Positions 12,980 through 62,910 of a DNA stretch of 64,000 nucleotides are shown piece by piece. The number at the start of each line of letters is the position of its first letter. The stretch's first letter is position 1. Source of the DNA: Amphibalanus amphitrite (lineage: Eukaryota; Arthropoda; Thecostraca; Balanomorpha; Balanidae). The notes beneath the pieces are model-generated. The model saw nothing but the letters and a program-made list of their open reading frames with translations. It made no database searches and was not told the DNA's origin. Made by a program: the position numbers and the translations under genes. The DNA lies in assembly GCF_019059575.1 (NCBI RefSeq), contig NW_024881854.1:372001-436000 (forward strand), in the 5' to 3' direction.

Positions 12980-13883
12980 TTAACCCTCGCCCGCACATGC
13001 TATTTTCCCATCCTAGAACGCACATGGGGGGGGGGTTGACACCCCCCCCGCGCCATTTCGTTCCTGTTGGAGATAGAGCTTAGCAGTAAAGACCAAAAAG
13101 ATTCTTTGGGAAGAGACGAATCCAATGATACCCAGTTTTACCTTCTCAGGTCAGTCATTGACCTTCCAGGTCAGGTCAAACTAAAAAATATTGCTGTTTT
13201 GGGTCACCGTTGGATATCAAGTGCGCTGCTTATCAAATACTGATGACGATGCTGTTTTCTGGTGCCAAGCCAGCTAGAACCTCTTTGTCACACTACCCGA
13301 CCAGAATTTTGCTGCTGAGGTCATTTCAGGTCAAGTTAGGTCAAGGTCATTTATATGTGTTTGTATGTCTGTGTGTGTCTGTGTGTATACTGATGTGTGC
13401 ACCGATTGTTTTTGGGTCCATATTACATGAAATCATGATCTGAGAAGCTTTTACCAAAAATGCAGTCAAAAAACTTCACAAAAAGTAAATTCAGCTTGCC
13501 TAAAACGCAATTATCTTAGATGACCTAGGTTGACCTTGACCCTGACCTTGACCCTTGTACATCGTCGAACAACATGTTCCATGATAGGTGGGAGGTAAGA
13601 CTGGCAAAAAAGGCCGAAATCAGGGTGTCAAAAGCTCACAAGGCCCATAGCAAGCGAAAGATGTTGAGAATTGGCCATTTGGGTCATGACATGACCTGAA
13701 AAACAAGGTCATATCTCCTAAACCAAAAATCACAGAAACTTGAAATTTTCAGTGGACATCAAGAAAGGATAGAGGAGCAGCTATACGAAAAATCAGCCTT
13801 CTAGCTCTAAAAATGTTGAGTGCAGAGCAGAAAGACTACCTGGGGGGGTGGCAACCCCCCCCCCATGTGCGGGCGAGGGTTAA
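12980..13883. mobile_element. TTAA element, tip CGCCCGCACATG
   Basis: It begins TTAACCCTCGCCCGCACATG and ends with the exact reverse complement, giving a 20-bp perfect terminal inverted repeat including the TTAA. The left tip is repeated in short form ('cgcacatg') just before the G-run/'ttgac'/C-run hairpin at 13026-13048; the right has a second hairpin near 13840. AGGTCA-type hexamers recur (for example 13145-13175, 13317-13350, 13519-13552). No ORF. TTAA plus CCC ends fit piggyBac-type non-autonomous elements. Confidence 0.85.
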
Positions 13884-16816
13884 GAAATAGGTATGAGTGC
13901 AAAGTTTCCGGTTTTTCTATCTTTCCCAATTGCAAAAATATCGTCGGAGAAGTAAAGGGGGGCAACTGCCGCCCCCAGCGGCCGGCGGGTGGCACGGAGG
14001 CCCAGCGGCCGTCGGGTACAAGGGCTATCGATTGCGCTTTTCTGCGGTGCTGCACCTGTATTCATCCTCGAGTTATGCGTTGGTGTTTCAAAATAAAGTT
14101 GGTATAAGTTTATAAATTGGTAAGTTATTGAAAACCATCGATGGTACATTGTCCGTCAAACACAAACTTCACTATCTGAGGTCACTGACATCAGGTCAGG
14201 TCACAGAGGTCAGGTCACTGGGGGTCACAATATGAAAGTGTCGTGTGATACATGTTTTATGGTCCATTGTACATGACAAATGCGATTATGTGGGTCAGGC
14301 AGCCTTTGGGGTCAGCTAAGATTACGTTTCGGTGAAGTTCAGGTCAAGGTCAGGTCAAGGTCAGGTCAAATTAGGTCAAATTTCAAAGTTGATATTTTGC
14401 ATAAAATGGGTATCCATTCAATGCAGCTCGTCACGGGGAGTCCAATGGTGATCTTTGTTTTGCCCTACATTGTATAGAATTGCCAAAAATTGAGTTCGAA
14501 AATTTGACGTCATCATTTTTGAACAGTTTTTTTCGCTATAACTTGGCCTAAAAACGAGCTATCGATCTGAAATTTGGTATGTAGATAGAAGACGGTAGTT
14601 ACTATCACATATATTCCGTTTTTTTTTTTGACAGTCAAAAAACTTTTTGGATTTTTTGCCTAATATATCTAAAAATTGCATTTTTGATTTTTGGGGTCAA
14701 AATTTAAAAATTTCAAAAATTCGAAATAACAGTTTTGTAGCCCTGTTAATTCTACACCTTTTATGTCTTAATCATTTTTCTGTACCTTCAAAGCTGTAGG
14801 CCTGACAGCTCTTCTCGCGAAGGTCTTTTTTGGGTAGAAAATGGCAGAACATGACGTCATTCTGACGTCATTTTTGGCCAACCTATCATAGCCTCTGGAA
14901 AAAAAATTGTTTACAATGTGTAAAATTGATGCCCGGAGAGGTCCTGAAAGTTTGGTGACGACATCTCTAGTTGTTTAGGAGATATCGACGGAAAAGGACA
15001 GGGGGAGGGGGGCCGTTTCGCCCCTCCCCCCTACGGGCAGGGGTGTAACTTTTGCTTTTGAGATGGGGGTGCACTTTGTGATGGGGGCGACCTTCAATGA
15101 GGATAGGGGCGCTTCCAAGGTGCATAGATGGTGCATACATTATACATTAGCGTCGCCACGGGGGGACAAGCGGGGCAGCTTGCCCCCCCCCCATCCCCGA
15201 CCGGGCTCCCCCTGAGATCAATGCAGATCCGATGAGATTTTGGGGTCGGCCAAAAAATGGGGGTAGTTTTCATGAATGGCTGTGGTCAAAATCAGTTGGA
15301 GTCTTGAGTCCAGGGTTGTATACGACTCAATCAATAGCAATCAATTCAATCACGACAAATTTGGGAAACCAATCAAATCAATCAAGTCAGAGCAGTTTTC
15401 GGGAATTGATTCAATCGACTCAAACGCGACAATGAAAGGAATCAATCAACTCAATCAAACGACTCAAACCAACACATACATTAGGTTTTTTGCCCCACCA
15501 ACTTGGAAAAGTGTCCATAGCAGTCTGGTGTACCTACCTTATACCTACCTACCTTCCTACCTACCCACAGAAGAAACATAAAAATATTGTCATTTAAAAT
15601 TATAAATTGCCATGCCATTCAAAGTTTCTATGTAATAAGGATGGATACCTAGTGATGGACAGGTGGATCATGATATTGAGGTTCAATGGGTAGAATTGGA
15701 GCAGAAGTTTCATTTAATGGGTGCAAAATAACCCAGTAGTTGACTAGCCCCTTAACCCAAATCACCACCTTTCACCTAAAGGTTGTCAATTTAATTTTGG
15801 CCATATTCCAACTCCATTTACACTAAATATCAGATATTCCGGTTGAAAGTTGGCTGCTCGGATTTTGGCAGTGTTCGTGATTTGGACAATTTACCCTACA
15901 CCACGTCTATTTTAATGGATAATATGCATCAATAACATATTAACCATAGGGAAATAGAAATAAATATCTTACCTGCATGTGACGGTTTCAGTTAGACAGA
16001 GACTGACGGGCAGCCTGAAAAATCTTTCCACACAATGTGCATTTGAGGCGTGGGATGTTGTCAGATTGGGAAGGAAGAGATTTGAAGTATTTAGCGGTCC
16101 ACGACTCTGGACGTGGCATGTCAATGTCAATGTTAGGTACCTATGTGAAGAATTCAAAACATTTAATTGCAATACAATTTGAAACTGTTAGGACTGGGGG
16201 ATAAGGATGAGGATTAAAAATATATTTAAAAGGAAATGGAGAGGACAGGGACTCTGGAACCACAGGATAAGATAAGGACAAAGGAAGTAGGAATAAAGAA
16301 AATTAAAACGCGAAAACGGCACGGTGCGACTGTGAATAAAAGAAAACGTTTTGCCAATAAGTATGCTAAGCTTTTATAAATCTTAGCATCTATAGCATCT
16401 ATAGATGGCCTTGTTATAAATCCTTATTCTACGTGTTTTGATTTTTTTTGTAAGATGACGTCATTGATTATCATGTACTATGGTAGATTATCATAAAATA
16501 AATCGGTTGTACAACACCAATTTCGTTTTAATTATTATTTCATTTGAAATAAAACCACTTAATAATATTGGGTAAAATATTTTAAGGAAAATGAAATATA
16601 TTAAATATGTTATGCTTAGGCTCTCAGGAGAAAAGGATCAACAAACGTTCTGCTGCAATTTAAACAATGCAGCAAATTAGCTATTAATTGGTATACGTAA
16701 ACGTAATTAGCGAGTCGAAAACGGCGCTTTTGTTTCAGTTATTTTTGTAGGGGTTTCAGATATTTATAGAGTTCAGTGGATTGTTTCTGAGGAGATGTGG
16801 AGATGTGAATTATTAA

Positions 16817-61895: not shown

Positions 61896-62286
61896 AGTGG
61901 GCGGTGCACTCCGTCACCGGGTGGCCACAACACAACACTGGACCGGATTGGTCATCACTGTACGTACAGCGGCTATACGAGAGACCACCGACTGTTCAAT
62001 GGCCGTGGACCGATCCTAAATCAGAATGTGACCCGTGACATTGATCAATTCTCATAGGTGTCGATTTGTATACTTTTGGGTGTGCCCGGGCACCCCCAAT
62101 GCTGAGTTGGGCACCCCTCCAAGGGGCTCTCGGCACCCCCAACCAAAGTTGGTAGCTGGCATCACTGTTACGATTCTTTGAACGCATTGTTTTCTCTAAT
62201 TCATAGGCGCGGGAACGGGGGGAAGGGCAGTGGGGACAGTCTACCCCCTCCAACTCTGGGGCCGTGAGGGTGGTGCCCCCACAGCT
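61896..62286. other. Spacer with a repeat fragment
   Basis: 62206-62280 resembles 25735-25850 (GGGGG-rich element end). A 'gggcacccc' palindromic cluster lies at 62080-62140. No gene. Confidence 0.35.
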
Positions 62287-62910
62287 TTAACCTTCCAGGC
62301 GGTGGGGAGGGCATTTTTTTGCCCCCCCCCCTTAGTTTTTTTTTGATATATCTCGAGAACCACTGCGCCGATCGCAACCAAACTTTCAGTACCTTCCCGA
62401 GAGTAGCTAGCATACATGGTGACCAAAACAAAATTCCAAAGGTTATCATAGGTTGGCCGCTAATGACGTCGGAGTGACGTTATTTCTGCCATTTTCGACC
62501 CAAAAAAGGTTTCGCGGGAAGAGCTGGCAGGCCTACAGCTTTAGAGATATATAAAAATCTTTCGACATAAAAGGTGTGGAATCAAAAGGGCTACAAAACT
62601 GCTATTTCGGTTTTTCGATATTTTTGGATTTTGACCCCCTAAAATCAAAAAAATATATTTTTTGAATATATTAGCCGAAAAAACCAAAAAGTTTTTTGAA
62701 TTTCGAAAAAACGGAATATATGTGATAGTCCTTACCGTTTTCTATCTACATACCATTTTTGAGATCGATACCTCTTTTTTGGCCAACTTATAGCGAAAAA
62801 AAAAACTTCAAAATTGATGACGTTTAATTTTCAAACTCAATTTTTAGCAATTCTAGACCTCGTAGCGCAAAACAAAGACCACCATTAGACTCCCCGTGAC
62901 AAGCTGCATC
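62287..62910. mobile_element. TTAA element, tip CCAGGCGGTGGGG, interrupted by an LTR element
   Basis: It begins TTAACCTTCCAGGCGGTGG with a G-run/'catttttttg'/C-run hairpin and the phrase 'tctcgagaaccactgcgcc'. 62460-62910 matches the AT-rich interior seen at 14500-15000 (reverse) and 49735-49850. It stops at the LTR; its other half should lie beyond the window. Confidence 0.75.

Follow-up and report, generated by a model that had tools for sequence, protein, structure and literature searches.

Elements of the window

The present analysis concerns a set of transposable elements that begin with TTAACC and end with GGTTAA, found in a stretch of 64,000 nucleotides of the Amphibalanus amphitrite genome (contig NW_024881854.1, here C357, positions 372001–436000; hereafter the window). 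The searched genome comprises 807.6 Mb in 2,644 contigs. Occurrences of TTAACC and GGTTAA in the window were listed and then paired into elements (Table 1). A preceding reading of the sequence alone had proposed at least a dozen such families differing in their tips, the short sequences behind the common terminal letters, and between positions 12980 and 62910 we registered 11 tip classes represented by one or more clean ends, and a further, damaged one at 62287. All seven tips spelled out in that sequence-only reading are present, one of them, given as CGCCCACTGGG, actually reading CGCCCCACTGGG. TTAA flanks both ends in 13 of 13 paired elements, which were themselves chosen by such ends, and uninterrupted copies are 877–1193 bp long.

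Table 1. Positions of the elements and their parts within the window
Positions	Strand	Feature	Remarks
12980-13883	+	CGCACATG-class element, 904 bp, long end first	both ends and TTAA read
16817-18008	+	CCCTGCTG-class element, first of two head-to-tail copies with one common TTAA	ends and TTAA read
18005-19196	+	CCCTGCTG-class element, second head-to-tail copy	ends and TTAA read
25906-26915	-	CACCGACGG-class element, long end at 26915	body common to CCTGGCGG family
26962-28713	+	TATTAGTGGCAG-class element, 1752 bp	extra sequence in the middle
28710-29379	+	CCGGCCGAG-class element, long part; remainder at 39673-40055	94.8% to intact-copy positions 1-677
30355-31239	-	TATTAGTGGCAG-class element, 885 bp	without AGGTCA
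31481-32526	+	CCGGCCGAG-class element, intact, 1046 bp	
35376-36425	-	CCCTGGCAG-class element, 1050 bp	
39673-40055	+	CCGGCCGAG-class short part of the copy starting at 28710	93.8% to positions 668-1046
43679-45178	.	CCCTGCTG-class: further long-end fragment from 43679, then complete copy 43986-45178	long end of the complete copy at 45178
47602-48794	-	CCCTGGTG-class element at TTAA inside a retrotransposon reading frame	autonomous relative L048:774-5496
49721-50412	-	second CCTGGTG-class element, long end 50412, inner tip GACCTGGTG	short end not found
50618-52684	+	CCCCACTG-class element	interrupted by ATGTG-class element
51150-52036	+	CATGTGTAG-class element	nested in the CCCCACTG-class element
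52681-53632	+	ACGACC-class element, short-end tip AACGCCTAGG	autonomous relatives L039:1389-5363, L051:498-4474
55490-56366	-	TATTAGTGGCAG-class element, 877 bp	
62287-62910	-	damaged member: short-type end 62287, CCGTTGG-like body to 62910	81% over 325 bp to CCGTTGG-class body

The two ends of an element are unlike. In the short end TTAACCC is followed by a trinucleotide typical of the class (in most cases TCG, GCG or TAT), then by the tip and a palindrome with a G-run, by which these G-run elements are named here. The long end opens in the same way, up to the tip, and continues with a spacer specific to it, a second tip copy and the palindrome. Each element thus carries its tip three times (outer long end, inner long end, short end), and the two copies of the long end stand 26–28 bp apart in 16 of 16 families. 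The threefold tip, the unlike ends and the even spacing of the AGGTCA clusters described below had escaped the sequence-only reading. The tip octamer covers approximately bp 7–14, if counted as for the terminal repeat of Trichoplusia piggyBac. The terminal CCC and the unlike ends with a repeat plus palindrome are those expected of piggyBac: according to the available part of PMC7351741, the right end of the Trichoplusia element differs from the left one by a 17-bp insertion and a duplicated repeat before a 19-bp palindrome, which is bound by a dimer of C-terminal zinc fingers, the DNA-binding domain contacting bp 9–14. The trinucleotide is no strict marker, TCG and GCG standing at opposite ends in the CCCCGTTGG family (L051:4471–5649).

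Insertion at TTAA can be followed in one case. A reading frame resembling that of retrotransposons without long terminal repeats (45210–49560), with endonuclease and reverse transcriptase domains, is broken by the CCCTGGTG element, and removal of this element with one TTAA kept restores an open frame of 1053 amino acids (aa). This in-frame empty site, together with TTAA at all paired elements, corresponds to the target and the precise insertion of piggyBac. A preference for the TTAA of other elements was also considered and set aside, as the three TTAAs that the 13 elements share are not clearly above chance, given the 244 TTAA sites of the window.

The sequence-only reading saw no transposase here, which is right for piggyBac: none of the 116 genome matches listed for the transposase profile PF13843 lies on C357. 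In this, in their uniform length and in their high copy number the elements resemble miniature inverted-repeat transposable elements (MITEs), but they are longer than the 500 bp under which MITEs usually remain (PMC2872659, in the text available). The short-end pattern of the TCG/GCG type gave 27,901 matches in the genome and 2 with the reversed-pattern control, that of the TATT type 2,542 and 0, which adds up to 30,443 intact short ends. With a length of about 1 kb per copy, the elements would occupy some 3–4% of the genome as a lower bound. The reverse-strand count of long ends (118,447) was not used, because the G-run yields overlapping matches on this strand. For the first 301 bp of the CGCACATG element of the window 40 scored genome matches are 97–100% identical. 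An Rfam search gave no match. One CCGGCCGAG element is split by approximately 10.3 kb (29380–39672), its positions 668–677 occurring on both sides.

Matched tips, common bodies and a chimeric family

Ends were compared in the 16 families with both ends in hand, the pairing being set by hand and 20,000 permutations made for each comparison. Inner and short tips agree in 6.75 of 8 positions within families and in 3.25 between them, outer and short tips in 7.12 and 4.12, outer and inner tips in 6.50 and 3.81, and the palindrome arms in 5.06 of 6 and 2.20; in none of these four comparisons did a single one of the 20,000 permutations reach the observed value. The controls, namely 8 bases beyond the palindrome and the spacer, gave no end-to-end agreement (14,874 and 10,352 of 20,000 permutations, respectively, reach the observed value). 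Tip-blind pairing of neighbouring ends led to the same picture for 22 elements, of which 21 are distinct, since L001 is the window's own copy, and 8 of the 21 represent one family. On contig C1, 26 elements were paired by position among the first 100 long and the first 100 short ends listed; inner and short tips coincide in 7/7 positions in 21 of them and in 6/7 in five (small shifts allowed), the remaining 74 listed long ends having no listed partner. Since separated tip copies and both palindromes covary, the tips behave as matched sets.

Among these 100 short ends of C1, 17 recurrent tips account for 83, and 12 of the 17 singletons are one change away from a recurrent tip. The tips thus fall into discrete classes, within which there is some drift. 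Another three recurrent tips, found among 100 listed ends of the TATT type, bring the number of tip types to about twenty. Varying of tips within a single family by ordinary drift had been named beforehand as the outcome contrary to the sequence-only reading, and these counts favour the latter.

Behind the tips, body sequence is common to 19 of 55 family pairs in the same orientation (E≤1e-6), with no pairs for reversed sequence and six for opposite strands, so that bodies proposed earlier to be kept are indeed alike beyond chance. One clear case is the CCTGGCGG element (L041:97–1091), which aligns to the CACCGACGG element of the window with 95–97% identity in each 100-column block from 101 to 700, and with 71/98 in the first block and 55–68% in the last 300 columns. 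This chimera has multiplied, because its tip and body match at 98–100% in 40 of 40 scored copies (of 1,326 candidates), and in all seven scored copies on C1–C8 the long end and a CCTGGCGG short end are separated by about 1 kb. Recombination has probably made it. Apart from this one clear chimera, tips mostly differ together with diverged bodies. Thus, of the tips previously thought to be interchangeable, what stands is one kept body with different ends, but not free interchange. Between two of the families tips also change faster than bodies do: CATGTGTAG and CCCGTATAG differ at 9 of 24 sites in the tips and at 48 of 748 in the body (Fisher p 1.9e-5), tip positions 3 and 6 being changed in all three copies.

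One could suppose that all this is ordinary divergence of families, in which tips and bodies have a common ancestor and drift jointly, the tips having no special standing. Such drift would explain why most tip classes differ in body too, why five pairs of recurrent tips among the 100 listed short ends are one change apart and why, in 13 families, body parts correlate with each other (r 0.45–0.55) and, more weakly, with tips (0.22–0.39; 0.49 for the two tips). However, three separated copies stay alike while changing and the adjacent controls disagree, tips outrun the body, and one body carries two kinds of ends. The covariation of separated tips and palindromes, next to controls that do not covary, refutes ordinary divergence as a full account, and we consider it improbable.

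Transposase genes with the same tips

A search for piggyBac transposases flanked by the same tips, proposed together with the assignment of the elements to piggyBac-type enzymes, was successful for 8 tip classes, in 5 of which both ends fit. The first 30 PF13843 loci had mostly TTAACCCATTAGTGCC-like ends without G-runs, and further loci revealed a subclade with G-run ends, where a fitting end was found at 12 of 15 compared transposase loci. Both ends match for CCCTGGTG (L048), ACGACC (L039, L051), the GTTGCTG type (L060), CGGCACAG (L057, L036, L058) and CCCGTATAG (L063, with decayed TTAA). One end matches for CCCCGTTGG (L041), CCCCGTAGG (L052), AGTTGCTGG (L053), GGGCCCGG (L055, L056) and ACGACC (L062). 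In linked loci the gene is directed from the short to the long end, orientation being part of the linking criterion for one-end loci. Window copies align to the autonomous CCCTGGTG element with 97.6% over 716 bp and 84.9% over 747 bp at the two ends, and to the autonomous ACGACC element with 88.8% over 339 bp and 89.9% over 404 bp.

A profile of four transposases matches the piggyBac transposase (6x67) with E 6.4e-106, through the C-terminal zinc finger, and piggyBat (9c0f) with 1.6e-43. Residues D268, D346 and D447 align, so that the DDE of PF13843 is present in tip-matched elements elsewhere and not in the window. Transposases whose tips are CGGCACAG, ACGACC and CGTATAG (in TCG or TAG context) are 55–65% alike mutually and 35–45% alike with the rest.

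The same tip and palindrome at both ends would also be predicted by copying between ends, either by gene conversion or in new elements formed from one end, rather than by choice of the enzyme, and G and C runs could aid it. But the agreement does not extend past the palindrome, leaves out both spacer and trinucleotide context and persists despite differing surrounding sequence, and transposase genes bear the same tips, all of which makes such copying a poor candidate for the origin of the likeness.

It is highly probable, in our opinion, that the elements are non-autonomous members of one piggyBac clade, split within this genome into about twenty recognition groups; they look like families of one clade, for which the earlier label "superfamily" is too wide. 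The transposase of a group would read the tip at each end, where the DNA-binding domain of piggyBac makes its contacts, and the G-run palindrome, where the zinc-finger dimer sits, while the second tip of the long end, about 27 bp inward, would provide the unlike pair of ends that piggyBac needs in cells. Each transposase would then work best on its own tips. New groups may appear when ends and enzyme change together, or when the ends of one group join the body of another, many bodies being a common chassis with inward AGGTCA clusters about 166–170 bp apart.

Several observations weigh against this explanation. Only 2 of the 11 window classes, CCCTGGTG and ACGACC, have a partner, and for the commonest tip, CCCTGCTG, none was found among the loci read. 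There is no recognisable end at the G-run-clade loci L054, L059 and L061, and at one-end loci only position and orientation make the link. In some families the outer tips show a poorer fit, as with CGGACCTATT outside and CGGCCGAG inside, and ACGACC and GTTGCTG have short tips unlike their inner ones. The donor of the chimera is uncertain, because its short-end unit is nearest to TATTAG (71% over 150 bp) but gives a longer alignment with CTGCTG (65% over 322 bp); in its long-end block the likeness to TATTAG is confined to the TTAACCCTATT start. Finally, tip similarity correlates with transposase identity at Mantel r = 0.31 (exact p = 0.059, 8 lineages), which is only suggestive of tips diverging in step with transposases. 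The idea of tips as recognition barcodes is supported in that they covary as matched sets, and only tentatively with respect to divergence in step.

Two further links were rejected: the TATTAG tip near the L045 transposase belongs to a separate adjoining element of 876 bp, and the CGGGCCGG tip at L063 has the wrong orientation, the transposase sitting in the CCCGTATAG element nested inside. Comparison of copies gave no clear boundary for L040, L043 and L049 (a 607-aa transposase family) or for L054 and L059. Immediately upstream of their transposase match the latter two have a TTAACCCGCGCCCC(G/A)CTG stretch that lacks a G-run; we did not regard it as a link. Tandem repeats were registered at some of these loci, with a 113-bp unit starting TTAACTACCGCAC upstream of the G-run-clade transposase (L054:786–1238), and about 36–72 bp apart behind the genes L040, L043 and L049 of another clade, where their number varies between copies. 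Eleven piggyBac transposase copies among the matches listed (L022–L032), with an open frame of 604 aa, differ little in score, an indication that another piggyBac clade has recently been active.

AGGTCA clusters and known systems

Within the elements of the window AGGTCA/TGACCT has a density of 12.2 per kb, compared with 2.0 per kb outside them. The AGGTCA-rich interior described earlier holds for 10 of 11 window classes, but the motif is sparse in ACGACC (6 in 952 bp); two compact TATTAGTGGCAG-class copies have none. Motif clusters stand approximately 170 bp apart in 12 of 13 families, which are related and do not represent 12 independent cases (0 of 2,000 gap shuffles were as strong); the thirteenth, TATTAG, has no AGGTCA. 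In autonomous elements the spacing peaks at 166 bp (0 of 3,000 shuffles), as estimated from the 9 of 13 ends with at least 4 motifs, two ends without motif and two with three being left out; in L052 and L058 clusters are missing at some expected places. The orientation of the motifs is inward, with ratios of 86:26 for the half that has the long end and 25:60 for the opposite half. In eight elements that belong to other piggyBac clades of this genome, two of them to one family, there are 0–4 motifs each. An interpretation of AGGTCA as paired nuclear-receptor sites is not favoured, since the commonest same-strand spacings are 5 and 10 bp.

There is about an even chance that the spacing of 166–170 bp is a trace of old tandem duplication and has no present role. 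Diverged direct repeats in two families, with offsets of 173 (66.7% over 138 bp) and 187 (70.6% over 126 bp), are consistent with it, and a profile of the first unit finds more units in register. On the other hand, clusters are in phase across lineages with transposases about 40% alike, and motifs are directed inward from both ends. The arrays may have some role. We tentatively suggest, as a less probable possibility, that the body is a working chassis, in which AGGTCA at nucleosome-length spacing recruits a host factor or keeps the ends open for pairing, so that an end set joined to it gains mobility. If this is true, the ends used for recognition and the chassis would be modules that evolve separately and can be recombined.

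The kind of element is known. With Trichoplusia ni piggyBac (6x67, 6x68), as presented in the accessible part of PMC7351741, the elements share the TTAA target, CCC ends, catalytic aspartates, C-terminal zinc finger, unlike ends, duplicated tip repeat and palindrome, and they differ in the G/C-run palindrome, the many tip sets per genome and the spaced AGGTCA clusters. The piggyBat of Myotis (9c0f), of the same superfamily, also repeats a tip motif and palindrome near an end, but the excerpt of PMC11707139 gives three such units 44 bp apart at the left end only, and its match to our profile is the weaker one. Bodies in common with differing tips have a precedent in CMITE of Acropora, a group of TTAA MITE families that vary in their terminal repeats and have a conserved interior, one family being tied to a piggyBac-like element. 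As far as the available text of PMC2872659 goes, these are about 100 bp long, comprise three to six families with a 75-base interior, and are described with no mention of repeated tips or AGGTCA. Chimeras have a precedent in Galileo of Drosophila mojavensis, where some copies carry another subfamily's interior between matching ends; it belongs to the P-element superfamily, with long, internally repetitive ends and a 7-bp target duplication, and 12 of its 170 copies are chimeras (PMC3573991, in part), instead of a multiplied chimeric family as here. A search of full-text literature, with subscription papers mostly outside it and Repbase not covered, found neither these elements nor the AGGTCA spacing described. 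Notable are the number of end types in one genome, a chimera that has multiplied, and clusters at regular spacing.

With about twenty natural end types for a single transposase clade, eight of them tied to enzyme genes, this genome could serve as a data set for how piggyBac-type enzymes choose ends and for non-interfering vector systems. It also bears on how non-autonomous elements may outlive an enzyme by changing ends, and the evenly spaced clusters pose a testable question on chromatin and transposition.

Two other features of the window may be mentioned. The open frame at 59662–61572 has a weak match to the Mab-21 C-terminal domain, just below the cut-off. A TTAACCCATTAATGCCG element without G-run (32658–34182) contains a 20-bp tandem repeat in its middle (33335–33881), and its ends resemble those of other piggyBac clades of this genome.

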